Shown here piece after piece: positions 1 through 10,243 of a DNA stretch of 64,000 nucleotides. Each line of letters opens with the position of its first letter. The stretch's first letter is position 1. The notes beneath the pieces were generated by a model. It had not been told where the DNA came from, searched no databases, and saw only the letters and a list, made by a program, of their open reading frames with translations. The position numbers were made by a program, and so were the translations under genes. This stretch comes from Falsiroseomonas algicola (GTDB taxonomy: Bacteria > Pseudomonadota > Alphaproteobacteria > Acetobacterales > Acetobacteraceae), in assembly GCF_011040385.1 (NCBI RefSeq), contig NZ_JAAIKB010000002.1, positions 186,001 to 250,000 of the forward strand, written 5' to 3'.

Positions 1-2
1 AC

Positions 3-815
3 TTCCTGTCCTCCCGCGTGCTGGAGGAGGTTGCCGTCATCCGGGATGCCGGCGCCAAGCTCTCCAACACGCTCGAGGGCACGATGATGGAGGCCTGTTC
101 GCTCTCCGTCAGCGCCGCCGAGACCTCGGACTTCCTGCAACGCTCGCAGGAAGCCGGCCAGGCCCTGCTGGCCTCGACGCAGGAGATGACGAGCCTGACC
201 GATGCCGCCCGCGCGCAGGCAGCAGATGCCGAGAACCGCGCGGCGGAGGGCGCAACCTCGATCGAGGCGCTGGTCTCCACCTTCGGGACGATCGGCGAGT
301 TCCTGCGCGGCATCAACAAGATCTCCGCCCAGACCAACCTGCTGTCGCTGAATGCACGCATCGAGGCGACGCGCGCCGGCCAGCATGGCGCCGGCTTCGC
401 GGTGATCGCGCAGGAGGTGAAGGTGCTGGCCGGGGAGGCCGGGACGCTCAGCGCCAATATCGAATCCCGCCTGCGGGAACTGGTGGCCGCCACGCGCGGC
501 GTGCAGGCGAATTTTGGCGCCATCGTCCAGGCCGTTCACGGCGCCACCGCCACGCTGACGGACCTGCTCAACCGCCAGCGTTCACTCGCCGAGAAGATCG
601 GCGATGGCTGCCAGCAGACCGTGGACGCCGCCGGCATGATGGCCGGCGTGAATGACGTGATCACCCGCATGCAACTCGCGATCAGCGAGACGGGGGAGGC
701 CTATGTGCAACTCACCCGCTCGCTCGACACCCTCACCGTCTCCGCCGAGGGCGTGGTGCGCAACCGCGAGGGGCTGCTGACGGCCACGATCGAAACGCAG
801 AAGGCGCTGACATGA
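3..815 (+). CDS. Methyl-accepting chemotaxis-type signalling protein, C-terminal part (5' end outside window)
   Basis: The frame is open from the window edge, so the N-terminal sensor is missing. About 270 residues are visible, nearly all helical coiled coil. The conserved chemoreceptor tip is present (AQTNLLSLNARIEA, then GFAVIAQEVKVLA), which is the region that contacts CheW and CheA. No membrane segment lies in the visible part and no C-terminal CheR pentapeptide is seen. The stop codon overlaps the ATG of the heme oxygenase gene, so the two are probably translationally coupled. The linkage to two bilin-synthesis enzymes suggests that the missing sensor binds heme, gas or bilin (a globin or phytochrome-like domain), but that is inference. 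The signalling-domain assignment is firm; the input is unknown. Confidence 0.85.
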   Translation, partial: FLSSRVLEEVAVIRDAGAKLSNTLEGTMMEACSLSVSAAETSDFLQRSQEAGQALLASTQEMTSLTDAARAQAADAENRAAEGATSIEALVSTFGTIGEFLRGINKISAQTNLLSLNARIEATRAGQHGAGFAVIAQEVKVLAGEAGTLSANIESRLRELVAATRGVQANFGAIVQAVHGATATLTDLLNRQRSLAEKIGDGCQQTVDAAGMMAGVNDVITRMQLAISETGEAYVQLTRSLDTLTVSAEGVVRNREGLLTATIETQKALT

Positions 816-1444
816 TGTCCATCGCATTGGCCGAAGCCCCGCCGCTGACTGCCACACCGCCGCTGACGCTGCGGCTGCGCCAGGAAACCCGGGCGGAGCA
901 TGAGCGGATCGAGGCCAATTCGCGCTTCTCGCGCCTCATGGCGCCCGACCTGACGATGGCGGAGTATCGCCTCCTCGTCGCACGCCTGCACGGCCACCAC
1001 GCGCCGCTGGAGGCAGCGCTGGAAGCCATGGCGCATCGCCTGCCGGCCTGTCTGGCACTGCATCGCCGCCTCAACCGCCGTGTGGCGCTGGCCGACGACC
1101 TCGTCGCGCTCGGCTTCACGCCGGCCGATATCGCGGCGCTGCCGCGGTGCGAGGCGCTGGCCATCCGCAGCGTGGAACAGGCGCTGGGCGCGCTCTATGT
1201 GCTGGAAGGCTCGACGCTGGGTGGGCAGCTCATCGCGCGCCACCTGCGCGCCACGCTCGGCATCGGCGCCGCCGACGGCGCGGCCCATGTCGTGCCCTAT
1301 GGACCGGAAACCGGCACGCTGTGGCGCGATTTCCGCCTGGCGTTGGATGCCGGTGCCGATGCCGCACAGTTCGATCCCGACGCCGTCATCGCCGCCGCCC
1401 GCCGCGCCTTCGACAGGCTCGATCGTTGGATGGCAGCGGATTGA
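812..1444 (+). CDS. bphO: Biliverdin-producing heme oxygenase (BphO/HO family)
   Basis: The 210-residue protein matches the length of bacterial heme oxygenases, which use reduced ferredoxin or a similar donor to open heme into biliverdin, CO and iron. The likely proximal heme-ligand histidine is H30, in a helix reading RQETRAEHERIE. The distal-helix glycine-rich region appears as YVLEGSTLGGQLIARHL (about residues 130-146). The start overlaps the stop of the upstream signalling gene (ATGATG offers two adjacent starts). The bilin reductase begins 4 bp after the stop, so the biliverdin is probably passed on to that enzyme. Soluble and cytoplasmic. The family call is confident; physiological reductant is unknown. 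Confidence 0.88.
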   Translation: MMSIALAEAPPLTATPPLTLRLRQETRAEHERIEANSRFSRLMAPDLTMAEYRLLVARLHGHHAPLEAALEAMAHRLPACLALHRRLNRRVALADDLVALGFTPADIAALPRCEALAIRSVEQALGALYVLEGSTLGGQLIARHLRATLGIGAADGAAHVVPYGPETGTLWRDFRLALDAGADAAQFDPDAVIAAARRAFDRLDRWMAAD

Positions 1445-1448
1445 CGCC

Positions 1449-2165
1449 ATGACCCTGCTGCGGCGCCTGGAAGAGGCGGCGGATGCGCTCGCCGCCATGG
1501 CCCTCGCGATACCGGGCGCGACTCCCCGCCCGATGCCGGATTGGCTGGCCCGCGCGGAGCAGGCCGGCACGCTGCGGCGGCCCATCGCCTGGCGGAACAC
1601 GGTGGTGACGACGCCCGCGCTGCGCCGCCTCCATGTCGAATACTTCGCCATCGAGGGCGAGATCGCGGTGCTGCATGCCTGCGCCTTCCCGCATCTGCAT
1701 GAGGCTCTGCCGATCTACGGCTTCGACGTGATCGCCGGGCAGGACCGCGCCACGGGCTGCTTCCTCGACCTGTCGCCGACCGTGCCGGGGGCCGATCCGC
1801 TGATCGAGGCCTGGGCCGACGGCCTCGCGCCGATGCGTGGCGGCCTCGGCGCCGCACGGGTCCTGCCCGAATGGACCGCCATCTTCTCCCGCCACGTCCT
1901 CGCGGTGCGCCCCTCCGATGCACTGGCCTTCGACCGGGGCATCGAACTCGGCCGCGCGGCGCTGGAGCATCTGGTGGCGGCGCCCGCCGCCAGGCGCTGC
2001 GATCGCGGGGCCATGGCCGCGGCGCAAACCCGCTACATCGAAGGACAGTGCCGCAACGATCGCACCCGGCGGATGCTGGCCGGCTGCATCGGCGCCGACC
2101 TCGCCGATGCCTTCATCGCCGAATGCCTCTTCCCGCCGGTGCCGGTCCCGGCGGACGTCGCCTAA
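1449..2165 (+). CDS. Ferredoxin-dependent bilin reductase, PcyA-like (phycobilin synthesis)
   Basis: This 238-residue protein belongs to the HY2/PcyA family, whose members reduce biliverdin to phycobilins with electrons from ferredoxin. The core block FPHLHEALPIYGFDVIAG followed by LDLSPT is characteristic. Three residues fall at the spacing of the PcyA catalytic set as I remember it (Glu76, His88, Asp105, gaps of 12 and 17): E64, H76 and D93 here. That supports PcyA-like chemistry, although the exact product (phycocyanobilin or another bilin) cannot be read from sequence. The ATG at 1449 is 4 bp after the heme oxygenase stop. The gene ends against the convergent tcuB. Such enzymes are typical of cyanobacteria, algae and phage; related pre-PcyA forms are reported in some non-photosynthetic bacteria. 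Confidence 0.85.
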   Translation: MTLLRRLEEAADALAAMALAIPGATPRPMPDWLARAEQAGTLRRPIAWRNTVVTTPALRRLHVEYFAIEGEIAVLHACAFPHLHEALPIYGFDVIAGQDRATGCFLDLSPTVPGADPLIEAWADGLAPMRGGLGAARVLPEWTAIFSRHVLAVRPSDALAFDRGIELGRAALEHLVAAPAARRCDRGAMAAAQTRYIEGQCRNDRTRRMLAGCIGADLADAFIAECLFPPVPVPADVA

Positions 2166-3307
2166 CCCGCCCGACGCTCCCGCGCATTCCGCAGCAGCGC
2201 GATGCCGCGATACACGCCATGCACCATCTTGCTGTAGGGCAGCACGGCGAAGAAGGACAGCACCAGGCCGAAATGCAGCGCCAGCATGAAGCCCATGGCG
2301 CCGGTGTGGCGCACCGCCAGCAGCAGCAGCCCCGTCGATCCGATCAGGAACAGCAGGCCGAGCATCGCATACTCGCCACCCATCAGCTTGCGCGCCACCG
2401 GCACGGGATCGGTGATCACCTTCACGCGCATCAGCCCCGCCGTGCCGATGCAGAGCAGCACGCCACCCCAGGTGCCGAGCTGCACCGGCAGGCTGAAGAA
2501 GGCGTGCGGTGACTTCCAGCCGAAGACATGGTGGTAGATGGCGCCCGTCGTCGTCGCGGCGAAGCACAGCATGAAGCCGTAGAACATCGCCTGGTGCAGC
2601 CAGCGCCGCTGCTGCGCGAAGCTGTCATCCACGTCGTTGCAGCCATGCCCACCTCCGCCGAGGTTGCGCAGCGTCAGCACATCCACCGCCGCCTCCGCCG
2701 CCGGCGCCGGCGTCAGCGGGCCACCCAGGCCCCCCGTGCCCCGCCAGTAGCGGATCGCACCCATGGCCATGGCGAGGATCGCGAAGCCGAAGCTGGCGCC
2801 GGCCAGCGCGTTGATCAGCCAGAGCGGGATGATGCGGAAGAAGGCGCCCGTGCCCGTCTGCGCCGTCCAGAGCTTCGACGGATCCACCAGCGCCACCGCC
2901 AGCAGCAGCGCCAGCGTCACGAACAGCGTCGCGACACCCGCGACGATCGTCCCGTTCTTCTCGAAGGCGCGCCCCATCGCCGGCGGCCAGGCATATTGCG
3001 CGTAGCTCTCCTGCCGGATGGTCGCGAAGGTGGCGGGGATGTTGATGCCGAAGGCATGCGGCGGCGCGTACTGGCAGGCGTGGTAGCACCCCTTGCAGCC
3101 ATGGCAGAGATTGGCGAGGTGCGTGAGATCCGCCGTCTCGAACTCCCGCCGCATCGCCATGGCGGGGAAGACGGCGCAATAACCCTCGCAATACCGGCAG
3201 GCATTGCACACCGCCATCTGGCGCCGCGCTTCCTGGTAGGCGTCGCTTTCCGTCACGGTCGCCTCGCGCAGCAGCGCGTCCAGCTTGTTCATCTCAGTTG
3301 CGGACAT
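2162..3307 (-). CDS. tcuB: TcuB: membrane iron-sulfur partner of tricarballylate dehydrogenase
   Basis: TcuB re-oxidises the flavin of TcuA and passes electrons to the membrane quinone pool during tricarballylate breakdown. Two four-cysteine clusters are visible near the N-terminus (CNACRYCEGYC at about residues 34-44 and CHGCKGCYHAC about 30 residues later), followed by several hydrophobic membrane helices, as in the family. I chose the ATG at 3307 because an AGGGAG ribosome site precedes it; a GTG at 3325 and an ATG at 3292 are alternatives. The start overlaps the 3' end of tcuA, so the pair is coupled. 381 residues. The tail overlaps the convergent bilin reductase by 4 bp. Confidence 0.9.
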   Translation of the reverse strand: MSATEMNKLDALLREATVTESDAYQEARRQMAVCNACRYCEGYCAVFPAMAMRREFETADLTHLANLCHGCKGCYHACQYAPPHAFGINIPATFATIRQESYAQYAWPPAMGRAFEKNGTIVAGVATLFVTLALLLAVALVDPSKLWTAQTGTGAFFRIIPLWLINALAGASFGFAILAMAMGAIRYWRGTGGLGGPLTPAPAAEAAVDVLTLRNLGGGGHGCNDVDDSFAQQRRWLHQAMFYGFMLCFAATTTGAIYHHVFGWKSPHAFFSLPVQLGTWGGVLLCIGTAGLMRVKVITDPVPVARKLMGGEYAMLGLLFLIGSTGLLLLAVRHTGAMGFMLALHFGLVLSFFAVLPYSKMVHGVYRGIALLRNARERRAG

Positions 3308-4691
3308 GCTTCGCCGCTCCCTCACCGGCCAGGCGGCCGAAGACCGTGCCCAGCGTCATGCCGAAACCCGCCAGGTAGCCCTGGCCGAGGATGTTGCCGG
3401 ACATGATCTCGCCGCTGGCGAACATGTTCCCGGAAGGCTTGCCATCCGCCATCAGCACGCGGGCCTTGTCGTCCACCTTCACGCTGAGGAAGGTGAAGGT
3501 GATGCCGGGCCGCAGCGGATAGGCGTAGTAGGGCGGCTTGTCGATCCGCCGCGCCCAGTGGCTTTTCGGCGGGGTCAGCCCCTCCGTCCGGCAGTCGTCC
3601 GGCGTCATCGGCGTGAAGGTGCCTGGCACGACGGCGGCGTTGTAGTCCGCCACCACCTTCTCCAGCTTCGCCGCATCCATCCCCGCCTGCGCAGCGATCC
3701 CCGCGATGCTGTCCGCCTTGTAGGGCGGATAGACGGAGGGAAGGAAATTCATCACCGCCTGGCTGTCCGTCACCGCCAGCGCCACCTGGCCGGGCTGCTG
3801 CGCGATCAGGCGGCCCCAGATCGCATAGCGCTTCGGCCAGACATCCTCGCCCTCATCGTAGAAGCGCTCGACATTGCGGTTCACGACGATGGCGAAGGGC
3901 ACGCAGTCCAGCCGCATGGCCAGCCCGCCATCCTCCATCGGCGCCCGCGCGTCATTCGCCACCGCGTGGAACTGCGTGGGATCGCCCACTTCCTGCACGC
4001 CCTGCGCCAGCAAATCCTTCAGGATCGTGCCCTGCGCATAAGGCGTGCCGCGGATCTGGAAATTGTCCGCCGCGTCGCCCCAGTATTCCCGCAGCCAGTT
4101 GCGGTTCGCCTGGAAGCCGCCGGAGGACGCGACCAGCGCCTTGAAGCGGATGCGCTCGGGGAAGCCCGCATGGCTCACCACCGCCTCCGTCGCCCAGCCT
4201 TCCTCCACCTTGATGTGCTGAACTTCCGTGTCGTACAGCGTGACGATGCCGAGCCGCGCGCATTCCCGGTACAGCGCGTTCAGCAGCGCCTTGCCGCCGC
4301 CGAGGAAGAAGGCATTGGTCCGGGACAGGGACAGCGTGCCCGACAGGCTCGGCTGGAACACCACGCCGCAGCTCGCCAGGAAGTCCGGCGCATGCTGGCT
4401 CGCGCGGATGCACATGCGCGCCAGCGCCTCATCCGTCTTGCCCGCGGTGACGCGCCGCAGATCGTCCCAGTATTCCTCCTCCAGGTAGCTGTCCGTCATC
4501 ACCTGGGTCGGGCCCGGATGCATGGTCCGCAGGTTGCGCGTGTGCCGCGAATTGCCGCCGCGCAGCGGGGGAGGGGAGGCCTCGCACAGGATCACGCTCG
4601 CGCCCGCGCGCGCCGCGGTGATGGCGGCGCAGAGCGCGGCATTGCCGCCCCCCACCACCAGCACGTCATAGACTCGGGAGAAATCGGGCAT
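3294..4691 (-). CDS. tcuA: TcuA: FAD-dependent tricarballylate dehydrogenase
   Basis: The 465-residue flavoprotein oxidises tricarballylate to cis-aconitate, which feeds the TCA cycle. The N-terminal dinucleotide site reads DVLVVGGGNAALCAAITAA (residues 9-27), followed by the RGGNSRHTRNLR segment typical of TcuA and fumarate reductase-like flavoproteins. The C-terminal FAD region is also clear (GNMFASGEIMSGNILGQGYL). It is transcribed before tcuB, with an overlapping junction. A GntR-family regulator is divergently oriented 103 bp away, and the space between carries repeated TATCCA motifs. No dedicated permease (tcuC) lies beside it. Confidence 0.92.
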   Translation of the reverse strand: MPDFSRVYDVLVVGGGNAALCAAITAARAGASVILCEASPPPLRGGNSRHTRNLRTMHPGPTQVMTDSYLEEEYWDDLRRVTAGKTDEALARMCIRASQHAPDFLASCGVVFQPSLSGTLSLSRTNAFFLGGGKALLNALYRECARLGIVTLYDTEVQHIKVEEGWATEAVVSHAGFPERIRFKALVASSGGFQANRNWLREYWGDAADNFQIRGTPYAQGTILKDLLAQGVQEVGDPTQFHAVANDARAPMEDGGLAMRLDCVPFAIVVNRNVERFYDEGEDVWPKRYAIWGRLIAQQPGQVALAVTDSQAVMNFLPSVYPPYKADSIAGIAAQAGMDAAKLEKVVADYNAAVVPGTFTPMTPDDCRTEGLTPPKSHWARRIDKPPYYAYPLRPGITFTFLSVKVDDKARVLMADGKPSGNMFASGEIMSGNILGQGYLAGFGMTLGTVFGRLAGEGAAKHVRN

Positions 4692-4720
4692 GGCGGCCCC
4701 TCGACCAGCTTCTGGGCGTT

Positions 4721-4763
4721 CTTGTATCCAATGGTATCCAGAGATGTCCAGATGGTCGTTCCA
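4721..4763. promoter_or_regulatory. Candidate operator with TATCCA repeats every 10 bp between tcuA and its regulator
   Basis: Between the divergent starts lie TATCCA (4725-4730), TATCCA (4735-4740) and TGTCCA (4745-4750), spaced exactly 10 bp so that they face the same side of the helix. The first is part of TTGTATCCAA, close to the palindromic core bound by many FCD-type GntR regulators. This is the only AT-richer stretch in the gap and is the likely control point for both genes. Binding is inferred. Confidence 0.5.
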
Positions 4764-4794
4764 ATCAGGCCGCGGCCTGGGCTACAAGCGCGGC

Positions 4795-5475
4795 ATGGAC
4801 ATGCCCCAGCCCAGCCGGGACCTCGGCCAGGAAGCCTATGCGCGTATCCGCGCCGCGATTCGGGACGGCACCCTCGCGCCCGGGCTGCGCCTGACGGAAA
4901 CGGACCTCGCCGCCCGCTTCGGCGTCTCCCGCACGCCCGTCCGCCAGGCCATCGCGCGGCTGGAATCGGAGGGGCTGCTGACGCATGAGGCCCGCCGTGG
5001 CCTGACGGTCACGCGCCCCGACCACGCGCAGGTCGTGGAACTCTATGTGATGCGCGAAGTGCTGGAGGGTGCCGCCGCGCGCCTCGCCGCCCAGCACGCC
5101 AGCGCGACGGAAATCGGCGCCATGGCCGAACTCGTCGCCTCCGAGCCCCGGCATTTCGACGATGCCCAGGCGCTGGCCGCCACCAACCAGCGCCTGCATG
5201 GCCTGCTCTACCTCGCCGCCCATAACCGCTACCTGCTGCGCAGCCTGGAACAGCTCGGCGCCACCATGGCCCTGCTGCCCACCCTGCTGACGGTCGGCGG
5301 CCGCGCCCAGCAGGCCCATGCCGAGCACCAGGCCATCCTCGCCGCCCTCCAGGCGCGGGACGGCGATGGTGCGGAAGCCGCCGCCCGCGCCCATGCCCAG
5401 GCCGCGCAGCGCCACCGCCTGGCCTGGCTGGTCCGCACCGTCGGCGTGCCCTACGCGGCGCCGGGCGGCGTCTAG
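4795..5475 (+). CDS. GntR-family (FCD) transcriptional regulator, probable tcu regulator
   Basis: The protein has a winged helix-turn-helix at about residues 10-75 ([18 protein letters not shown], then [18 protein letters not shown]), followed by an all-helical FCD effector domain to the end at residue 226. FCD domains usually bind a carboxylic acid, often with a metal. I chose the ATG at 4795 because residues upstream do not match the family and the putative operator lies before it; an in-frame ATG at 4801 is equally possible. Divergent orientation from tcuAB suggests that it controls those genes in response to tricarballylate or a related acid. The regulator class is certain; the target is inferred. 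Confidence 0.85.
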
Positions 5476-5543: not shown

Positions 5544-7508
5544 ATGCCCGACCTGTCGCTGCGCATGCGCCTGCTGGCTGCCATCGGGGGGGCGGCGCTC
5601 GTCTCCGGCGCCGCCATGGGCGGCTTCGCCCTCTGGCTCCAGTCCCGCCAGGCCGCGATCGACGAACAGGTCATGGTTGACGCCGTCGCCGAACGCCTCG
5701 GCAGCGCGATCGAGGATGAAGGGCGCATCGCGCTCGGCATCGCGACCGCGCTCTCCGGCGACCCCGACCTCCGTCGCGCCGTCCTGGCCAATGACCGCGC
5801 CGCGACGCTCGCCATCCTCACCCCCGCCCATCGCGCGCTGACGGAGGCCTATGGCCCCGGCCTGGTCAACGTCGTGCTGCCCCCCGGCATCGCCTTCGCC
5901 CGCGCCCATACGCCGGAAGCGCATGGCGACCGCATGGTGCCGCGGCGGGAGACGATCCAGCGCGCCTTCGCGGAAGGCCGCCCCGCCGCGGGCATCGAGC
6001 CGGGGCGGGAGAACATCAGCGTGCTCGCCGTGGTGCCGATCCGGCATGAGGGCCGCGTGATCGCCGCCGTCGATGCGGGCTTCTCGCTCGGCCCCACCAT
6101 CGCGCAACGGCTGCACCGCCAGACCGGCGCGCAGGTGATCCTCCACCGTACCGCCGGCGACCGACTCGTCGTCTTCGGCGCCAGCCGCCAGGGCGGCGGC
6201 CTGCTGCCGCCAGAAGCCTTGCAGGCCGCCCTGGCCGGAGAGGTGGTGACGCGCGACGTCCCGCTCGACGGCCGCGATGGCGTCGCCCGTGCGCAACCGC
6301 TGCGGAGCCTCGCCGGCGAGATCGTCGGCGTGATCGAACTCTGGCAGGACACCACCGCCATGGCGGAAGCCGCGGCGGCGAAGCGCCTCACCCTGATCGG
6401 TGCCCTCGCATTGCTGCTGCTCGGCGCCGGCGCTGCCGCCATCTGGCTGGCGGAGGGCGTGCGCCGCCCCATGACGCAGATCGCCCGCCGCCTGCACGGC
6501 ATCGCGGAAGGCGAGACGACCTCCCCCGTTCCCTTCCGTGACCGCGGCGACGAACTCGGTGAGATCGCCCGTGCCGCGGAGACGCTCCGCGCCACCACGG
6601 AGGAAGCCGCCCGCCTGCGCGCCGAACAGGACCGGCTGCGCGATGCCGCCGAAGCCCAGCGGCGGCAGGCGGCACTTTCCATCGCCAGCCAGCTCGATTC
6701 GGAGATCGGCGCCGTCGCCACGGCACTGCGCGGCGCCTCCGACGCGCTCGCCGAGAGCGGCGTCGATTTCGGCCACCGCGCCAGCGCCGCCGGGGACCGC
6801 GCCGGCCGTGCCGCCGAAGGCGCCGGCCAGGCCGCCGCGGAAGTCTCCACCGTCGCCGCGGCGACCGAGGAACTCTCCGCCTCCGTCGCCGAGATCACGC
6901 GCCAGGTCGCGGAAGCCGCCCGCACGGCCCGCCAGGCGGTGGAGGAAGCCCGCCGCACGGACCAGACGGTGGGCGGCTTGGCGGAAGGCAGCCAGCGCAT
7001 CGGCCAGGTCGTGCAACTCATCGCCGACATCGCCGCGCGCACCAACCTCCTCGCGCTCAACGCCACCATCGAGGCCGCGCGCGCCGGCGACGCCGGCAAG
7101 GGCTTTGCCGTGGTGGCATCCGAAGTGAAGGCCCTCGCCACCCAGACCGCCAAGGCCACCGACGACATCAGCCGCCAGATCGGCGCCATGCAGCAATCGG
7201 CCCTGGCCTCCGCCAGCGCCATCCAGGGCATCGCCGGCATCATCGGCACGCTGGACAGCATCGCCGCCGCCATCGCCGCCGCGGTGGACCAGCAGGGCGC
7301 CGCCACCCAGGAAATCGCCCGCAGCGTCCAGCAGGCCGCGCAAGGCACCGCCCGCGTCACCACCGAAGTCGCCGCCGTCTCCGCCGGCACCACCAGCCTC
7401 GGCGAGGCCGCACGCCAGGTCATCACCCTCGGCGAAGCCGTCGGCGCCCAGGAACGCCGCCTGCAGGAGAACCTGGCGGGGCTGTCGGCGCGGCTGCGCG
7501 CGGGGTGA
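5544..7508 (+). CDS. Methyl-accepting chemotaxis protein with periplasmic sensor
   Basis: This is a complete 654-residue transmembrane chemoreceptor. An N-terminal membrane helix (about residues 9-32) is followed by a periplasmic sensor of about 250 residues that resembles a Cache-type domain. A second membrane helix (about 280-303), a HAMP linker (about 304-360) and a long signalling coiled coil follow. The signalling tip reads [20 protein letters not shown], then [13 protein letters not shown]. It would bind a small molecule outside the cytoplasmic membrane and modulate CheA. The ATG at 5544 has a GGAG site that is part of a hairpin. It stands alone between a regulator and a repeat-rich gap, with no chemotaxis operon nearby. 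Ligand unknown. Confidence 0.9.
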
Positions 7509-9925: not shown

Positions 9926-10243
9926 TCAGGACGCCAGCTGGAGGGCCGGGCGCGGCTCTGCATCCACCGAGGGCCCGGCGGCGCGCAGCCTTTCGCGGAA
10001 CTTCACGGGCACCGGCCCGGGCGATACCTCCACCGCATAGGCGCCGACCACCATCCGCGCCTTCTCCGCGGCCTGGCCCAGCGCCAGCGCGGCGGCGACC
10101 TCCTCCGGCGGGAAGATCCGCGCCGCGGCGACCTCCGCCACCCATCCGCCGGCACCGAGCCAAACCACGCGGCCGGTTCGGAGATCATTCGCGGTGACCA
10201 CCAGCGGGGCGGTGGCGGGGCGGGTCTTCGCCGGTGCGGCCAT
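9926..10243 (-). CDS. DUF2849 protein, first gene of the cysI operon
   Basis: This is a 105-residue cytoplasmic protein with the DUF2849 pattern (VVTANDLRTGRVVWL near the N-terminus, then an acidic-helical middle and VGAYAVEV). The family is almost exclusively found between siroheme synthase and sulfite reductase genes in alphaproteobacteria, as here, so a role in sulfite reduction is likely although no activity is known. It precedes cysI by 5 bp. The gene faces away from cysG across a 231-bp promoter region. Confidence 0.85.
   Translation of the reverse strand: MAAPAKTRPATAPLVVTANDLRTGRVVWLGAGGWVAEVAAARIFPPEEVAAALALGQAAEKARMVVGAYAVEVSPGPVPVKFRERLRAAGPSVDAEPRPALQLAS

Follow-up and report, generated by a model that had tools for sequence, protein, structure and literature searches.

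A probable phycocyanobilin light-sensing operon with a chemoreceptor-like gene, associated with gas-vesicle genes in Falsiroseomonas algicola and other Acetobacteraceae

A five-gene operon with phytochrome and bilin-synthesis genes

We analysed a 64,000-nucleotide stretch of the Falsiroseomonas algicola genome (contig NZ_JAAIKB010000002.1, positions 186001-250000; hereafter the window). Its first lines hold the end of a tight operon of five genes that encode, in order, a phytochrome, a STAS protein, a protein with the signalling domain of methyl-accepting chemotaxis proteins (MCP), a heme oxygenase and a PcyA-type ferredoxin-dependent bilin reductase (FDBR). The operon starts outside the window, and we number its upstream part on L002, a stretch covering the same locus in which window position 1 is position 10001. 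The phytochrome, a PAS-GAF-PHY protein of 612 amino acids, is encoded at L002 7718-9556 on the plus strand (Pfam PHY, 3.2e-25; PAS_2, 5e-15; GAF, 2.7e-9), if its start is taken to be the ATG at L002 7718, which we chose in a reading frame that opens earlier. It is followed after 11 bp by the STAS gene (L002 9568-9879, +; 103 amino acids; STAS_2, 1.4e-17) and, after a further 18 bp, by the MCP gene (305 amino acids; MCPsignal, 3.7e-19). The MCP frame is already open at the window start and occupies window positions 1..815 (+); its start codon lies at window coordinate -102 (L002 9898), 103 bases before window position 1. The heme oxygenase gene (window 812..1444, +; 210 amino acids; Heme_oxygenase, 1.8e-20) overlaps the MCP gene by 4 bp, and the PcyA gene (window 1449..2165, +; 238 amino acids; Fe_bilin_red, 1e-23) begins 4 bp after the heme oxygenase stop. 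The MCPsignal, Heme_oxygenase and Fe_bilin_red matches are all above the Pfam cut-offs.

An earlier note, made from the window alone, had described the last three of these genes, and the arrangement it gave is borne out by the junctions and domain matches above. It had also supposed that the missing N-terminus of the MCP protein was a bilin photosensor or a globin; this has to be given up, as extension upstream adds only 34 residues and no such domain. Searching upstream for phytochrome, GAF and globin domains, as the same note suggested, did locate a phytochrome with a GAF domain, two genes upstream of the MCP gene. Its broader proposal, an operon for light or gas sensing with a locally made phycobilin and a chemotaxis-like output, survives in part: the phytochrome, the bilin genes and the MCP-type protein are present, but the photosensor is a separate protein, and a Pfam search of the five operon proteins gave no match to a globin family.

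The operon recurs in two layouts

A phytochrome-based scan of genome contigs returned nine loci, seven of them close and from Acetobacteraceae and two with distant phytochromes alone. The five-gene order, which we call type I, is present in eight genomes, namely that of F. algicola and those of seven of the nine scanned loci; one of these, L004, comes from the cultured relative Falsiroseomonas stagni DSM 19981. Since the same order of MCP, heme oxygenase and reductase genes behind a phytochrome and a STAS gene recurs at seven of nine loci, we conclude that the three-gene set did not arise by chance. Three genomes have a second layout, type II, in which the order is phytochrome, STAS, heme oxygenase, a second kinase-less phytochrome, unassigned genes and PcyA, with no MCP gene; one of these clusters (L033) sits on a truncated contig. 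Thus, related clusters occur in 11 Acetobacteraceae genomes (family in the GTDB sense, F. algicola included).

The profile PF05996 matched 9 of 397 genomes of the family, 8 of them over the cut-off, and 3 of 385 genomes in a sample of the class (F. algicola, one other over the cut-off and one weak match). It also matched 1 of 265 genomes of the genus of Bradyrhizobium sp. ORS278, which we took to be ORS278 itself, given the 16S match of its genus and its gene content; the BrBphP3 island of this strain reportedly goes back to work by Jaubert in 2007. Type I clusters and ORS278 were split from type II in each of the trees for phytochrome (split at 100/100), heme oxygenase and STAS, as expected for a unit that is inherited together. 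In some rows of the trees and of the phytochrome and PcyA alignments, the sequence begins where the alignment does and does not reach back to the real start of the protein.

The reductase retains the catalytic residues of PcyA

Alignment with Synechocystis PcyA showed that Glu76, His88 and Asp105 are all present in the window reductase. This triad is intact in each of the 11 bacterial rows that span all of these positions, and a twelfth, truncated row has Glu76 and His88; the PcyA variant 3i95 has another residue in the Glu76 column, and a pelagiphage row has Asp at that position. According to passages of Rockwell 2023 (PMC10151467), pre-PcyA proteins are without Glu76 and His88, and Glu76 is specific to PcyA and needed for 18-vinyl reduction. 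Because the window reductase keeps Glu76, His88 and Asp105, unlike pre-PcyA, phycocyanobilin is its expected product, and we predict from these residues that it makes this bilin. Identity as a pre-PcyA, homologues of which the earlier note had mentioned for non-photosynthetic bacteria, or as a PcyX is ruled out by the same catalytic residues.

The PcyA tree separates a candidate alphaproteobacterial and phage side (labelled AX) from cyanobacterial and cyanophage rows at 100/99; it contains no pre-PcyA row, leaves out the PcyA of L033, has an unsettled bootstrap and is poorly resolved inside the alphaproteobacterial group, with long branches and 9 of 12 inner forks open. We also checked for plasmid and phage origins. 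No match to PcyA was found in the plasmid collection by tblastn at E 1e-5, and five phage records matched at 25-28% identity. For the heme oxygenase, matches in PDB are weak, the best being HemO 1j77 (E 1e-4). Separately, an alphaproteobacterial draft genome (G687) has two FDBR matches on two contigs (L023 and L025); the stretches taken from these contigs gave no match to the operon or gas-vesicle queries.

The phytochrome has two candidate bilin-binding cysteines

We aligned the operon phytochrome with Cph1 (2vea), numbering its sites by what we take to be the Cph1 residue numbers. Bilin-binding Cys259 is retained, as are Asp207, Tyr176 and His290, and His260 is replaced by Asp. A further Cys lies in the N-terminal region, where bacteriophytochromes have their biliverdin-binding Cys. 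Both Asp260 and this second Cys occur in all nine rows from type I clusters (eight) and ORS278, and in none of the six type II phytochromes, in which Cys259 is kept. The operon phytochrome has no kinase. Each of the type II loci L026, L033 and L031 has two kinase-less phytochromes in its gene row, both with the GAF Cys and His260; near its cluster, L031 also has a third phytochrome frame, which bears a kinase.

A conserved STAS protein and a soluble MCP-type protein

The STAS protein is the most conserved part of the operon, with 99-100% identity in the three nearest relatives (phytochrome, 92-94%; PcyA, 77-79%), and it accompanies the phytochrome in all 12 clusters compared. It resembles anti-sigma antagonists (TIGR00377, 4.7e-13, below the cut-off of that family; TM1442, 8e-5). 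The position of SpoIIAA Ser58 is occupied by Ala in all eight type I proteins, in ORS278 and in two of the three type II proteins, and by Ser in the type II protein of L031. Ala at this phospho-acceptor position makes a contact adaptor a better fit than a classical partner switch.

By its features, the 305-residue MCP-type protein is not a transmembrane ligand-binding chemoreceptor: we detected no membrane-type segment (largest 19-residue hydropathy mean, 1.12) and no sensor domain or HAMP, and MCPsignal is the only Pfam match. Its tip, QTNLLSLNARIEA, is invariant in all seven aligned orthologs and close to that of known receptors. An AlphaFold model of the L006 row consists of two long helices, with a mean predicted local distance difference test score (pLDDT) of only 56.7. 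When the best five candidates per genome were scored, six of the 397 genomes of the family had an MCP ortholog (E up to 1e-20). Each of them is one of the nine PcyA-positive genomes; hence, the protein looks dedicated to the operon.

Gas-vesicle genes accompany the operon

A gas-vesicle cluster, identified by Pfam and NCBIfam matches, lies divergently to the operon at contig positions 170162-183525 (-), reaching up to L002 7525. It encodes three proteins of the GvpA family, GvpN (a match that exceeds NCBI's cut-off), GvpO, GvpK, several GvpL/F proteins, an Hsp20 protein, a CDC48-type ATPase and unassigned proteins. Such a cluster also adjoins the operon in L003, L004 and L006, and gas-vesicle genes flank the type II clusters of L026 and L031 and the ORS278 cluster; the contigs of L005, L007 and L008 are too short here to show whether the same holds. 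Every one of the 11 cluster-bearing genomes has gas-vesicle genes, located by search in nine and by adjacency in two (L003 and L006). We then compared 80 of the 397 family genomes, made up of the nine PcyA-positive genomes, nine listed PcyA-negative genomes of the same genus and G001-G062. GvpA-family genes were present in 9 of 9 PcyA-positive and 2 of 71 PcyA-negative genomes (Fisher 2e-10, with genomes treated as independent and kinship ignored) and, within the F. algicola genus, in 4 of 4 and 0 of 9, respectively (Fisher 0.0014, kinship likewise ignored). We regard this co-occurrence as the strongest clue to the function of the system.

Two further proteins were observed near these genes. 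A protein of 280 amino acids, encoded at L002 6683-7525 (-) between the phytochrome operon and gvpN, has no Pfam or NCBIfam match and is retained in the type I relatives and, at 44%, in the type II locus L031. A protein of about 180 amino acids occurs in several diverged copies (25-29% identity); the F. algicola copy, beside GvpA (L062 12540-13079, -), has no Pfam match, and in type II a copy lies between the second phytochrome and PcyA (L026 9279-9815, +).

The host genome

The earlier note had seen no photosynthesis genes in the flank, which fits the part of the window that we read, but the F. algicola genome has reaction-centre genes (pufL/pufM-type) on another contig, and these rule out a non-phototrophic host. 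Reaction-centre genes were found in 14 of 18 genomes tested (6 of 9 PcyA-positive genomes and 8 of 9 PcyA-negative genomes of the same genus). Because three of the nine PcyA-positive genomes (completeness 95, 89 and 69%) show no such genes, the link between the module and photosynthesis is not a strict one. We detected four CheA-type genes in the F. algicola genome, CheA being the motility gene searched for, and two further phytochromes, one of which (L021) has the biliverdin-type Cys, no GAF Cys and an adjoining heme oxygenase-like gene. Since a separate biliverdin-type phytochrome and heme oxygenase exist, the operon looks like a second, dedicated pigment path.

Sequences around the operon

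Upstream, a block GGAACCGATC-TTAA at L002 7581-7595 (+), about 125 bp ahead of the phytochrome start, occurs in four close relatives only; the other loci have no exact copy of GGAACCGATC ahead of the phytochrome. We compared the block with what we take to be the EcfG-type promoter consensus and found no fitting -10 element for such a promoter there. Downstream, the PcyA gene converges on an unrelated frame of the opposite strand that ends at window 2162. Named by eye, window 2162-4691 (-) encodes a membrane/iron-sulfur type protein together with an FAD-binding one, resembling a pair of the tricarballylate or fumarate-reductase type, and window 4690-5475 (+) encodes a GntR-like regulator. A few genes downstream of the operon, window 5544-7508 (+) encodes a membrane chemoreceptor-like protein of 654 amino acids with one strong hydrophobic segment and an MCP-type tip; similar frames also lie downstream in L003 and L006.

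Proposed function and alternatives

Gene content, gene order, conserved residues and co-occurrence with gas-vesicle genes are direct observations. We consider it probable that the system is a phycocyanobilin light-sensing module of the BrBphP3 type, which may signal through the STAS protein, together with the MCP-type protein, to flotation, taxis or both. Judging by the conserved residues and the characterised relative, the heme oxygenase would open heme to biliverdin, PcyA would reduce biliverdin to phycocyanobilin, and the kinase-less phytochrome of the same operon would bind it. By analogy with its ORS278 relative, the phytochrome is probably an orange/red light meter, that is, a sensor of light intensity. 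Having no kinase, it may pass on its state by protein contact, in the first place to the STAS protein, its constant neighbour. In the F. algicola lineage, the next step after the STAS protein might be the soluble MCP-type protein, and this protein could join a chemosensory complex of CheA and CheW. The output would most likely be gas-vesicle buoyancy, with or without taxis, through a presumed regulatory link.

Several observations weigh against this interpretation. The reductase is divergent, scoring 95.7 bits with its best NCBIfam family, NF002760, against an equivalog cut-off of 206 bits; because the score is far under this cut-off, the product is read from the residues only. Neither ORS278 nor any of the three type II clusters has the MCP gene, hence the core of phytochrome, STAS, heme oxygenase and PcyA does not need it. 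A search of the 10 kb upstream in L009 gave no gas-vesicle gene; in five of the nine PcyA-positive genomes (drafts) the gas-vesicle genes are on contigs other than that of PcyA; and, as counted above, GvpA-family genes are also carried by two PcyA-negative genomes. Pfam searches of operon and gas-vesicle proteins identified neither CheA or CheW nor a sigma factor or DNA-binding regulator.

The system might instead serve phototaxis, with the phytochrome and STAS protein driving the cytosolic MCP in a chemosensory array that steers flagella, and the gas-vesicle genes mere neighbours on the same island. The invariant, receptor-like tip, the four CheA-type genes and the finding of the MCP only together with PcyA would fit such a role, and a passage of PMC4053972 proposes a kinase-less bacteriophytochrome beside a heme oxygenase as the phototaxis sensor of Ca. 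Symbiobacter mobilis. However, the core persists where the MCP is missing, and gas-vesicle genes co-occur with PcyA in nine of nine genomes even when the two are on different contigs; phototaxis of this kind is possible but rather unlikely.

The YtvA/RsbR stressosome proteins are the model for a light-driven STAS partner switch. If the operon worked in this manner, the STAS protein, as an anti-sigma-factor antagonist, would free a sigma factor in the light, and the MCP would be a bystander. The resemblance to anti-sigma antagonists and the constant pairing with the phytochrome are consistent with a switch, but the replacement of the phospho-acceptor Ser in all but one of the proteins compared, and the absence from the five operon proteins of any anti-sigma kinase or phosphatase domain in Pfam, make it doubtful.

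We regard it as very unlikely that another bilin is made (phytochromobilin or phycoerythrobilin, as by pre-PcyA and PcyX), or that the phytochrome takes biliverdin through the N-terminal Cys found in all nine type I and ORS278 proteins while PcyA serves elsewhere, given that Glu76, which passages of Rockwell 2023 tie to 18-vinyl reduction, is present here (Asp in the pelagiphage row), that the GAF Cys is also kept, and that the ORS278 phytochrome, which likewise has the two Cys, reportedly binds phycocyanobilin and not biliverdin.

For the phycocyanobilin light-sensing module, we tentatively raise the possibility of a new output route, in which a kinase-less phycocyanobilin phytochrome would act without phosphotransfer, via a non-phosphorylatable STAS adaptor, on a dedicated cytosolic chemoreceptor-like protein; one light meter might then set both buoyancy and chemosensory signalling in anoxygenic phototrophs. 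The 11 Acetobacteraceae clusters take the system beyond a curiosity of a single strain and give it a function that can be tested, light-set flotation, and STAS is offered as a partner for a phytochrome that has no output domain. They also suggest that these bacteria, most of which have anoxygenic reaction-centre genes (6 of 9 tested), make a cyanobacterial-style pigment to sense light and not to harvest it.

Relation to previous work and known systems

A 2024 paper (PMC11480375) states in one passage that ORS278 is, to its authors' knowledge, the only alphaproteobacterium with such an island, and stereotyped loci for alphaproteobacterial PcyA are mentioned in a passage of Rockwell 2023 (PMC10151467), which includes ORS278 in one of its figures. 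Further members of the island may be known to others. A literature search for Roseomonas with PcyA gave no match, one for gas vesicle with PcyA gave papers that are cyanobacterial by title, and no title on such a system in Acetobacteraceae was among the matches listed. In the passages available of PMC11089705, Roseomonas is an abundant anoxygenic phototroph of Microcystis aggregates, and gas vesicles are mentioned only for Microcystis.

Individual components have counterparts in characterised families. The operon MCP shares the hairpin tip sequence of chemoreceptor cytoplasmic hairpins such as that of T. maritima (2ch7), but differs in having no sensor domain, HAMP or membrane segment and in being tied to a phytochrome operon. 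The operon phytochrome shares with cyanobacterial Cph1-type phycocyanobilin phytochromes the GAF Cys at the phycocyanobilin-binding position, but is without a histidine kinase, has Asp in place of His260 and has the extra N-terminal Cys. The pairing of a heme oxygenase with an FDBR outside cyanobacteria is also seen in the pre-PcyA/BBAG clusters described in passages of Rockwell 2023 (PMC10151467); in contrast to those, the F. algicola reductase has the PcyA catalytic residues, and a Pfam search of the five operon proteins identified no globin, V4R, Fe-S or B12-binding partner of the BBAG kind. In Ca. Symbiobacter mobilis, as told in part of PMC4053972, Cenrod_2641 is a kinase-less bacteriophytochrome with fast dark reversion in an apparent operon with a heme oxygenase, and has been proposed as a phototaxis sensor. 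It resembles the F. algicola phytochrome in lying, without an output domain, beside a heme oxygenase, but binds biliverdin, and PcyA, STAS, MCP and gas-vesicle neighbours go unmentioned in those passages.

The BrBphP3 island of ORS278 shares the most with the F. algicola locus. Passages of PMC3899966 describe it as horizontally acquired and as carrying a phycocyanobilin-binding phytochrome with phycocyanobilin and gas-vesicle genes; the phytochrome, which has both Cys in our alignment, reportedly binds phycocyanobilin instead of biliverdin, and its P-orange form near 600 nm converts to Pr near 670 nm (as given in part of PMC3197147). Upstream of this phytochrome and on the opposite strand, L046 11459-14262 (-) encodes, by eye, a regulator of the LuxR type and a soluble protein that has an MCP tip as well as PAS-like repeats. 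We found the island order to be phytochrome, STAS, heme oxygenase, PcyA, AlaS and gas-vesicle genes. Thus, both loci have a kinase-less phytochrome with Cys259 and Asp260, followed by STAS, heme oxygenase and PcyA, with gas-vesicle genes alongside; the proteins are 55% (phytochrome, over 565 amino acids), 63% (STAS), 44% (heme oxygenase) and 44% (PcyA) identical. They differ in that the F. algicola locus has a soluble MCP gene between STAS and heme oxygenase, where no MCP match was found in ORS278, gas-vesicle genes that are divergent and not downstream, and no alaS: tblastn of ORS278 AlaS at E 1e-3 matched only ORS278 loci, and neither the window nor the other loci compared. Given the shared order and identities, and these two differences in gene content, we conclude that the F. 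algicola locus is a relative of the ORS278 island that lacks alaS and to which an MCP gene has been added.

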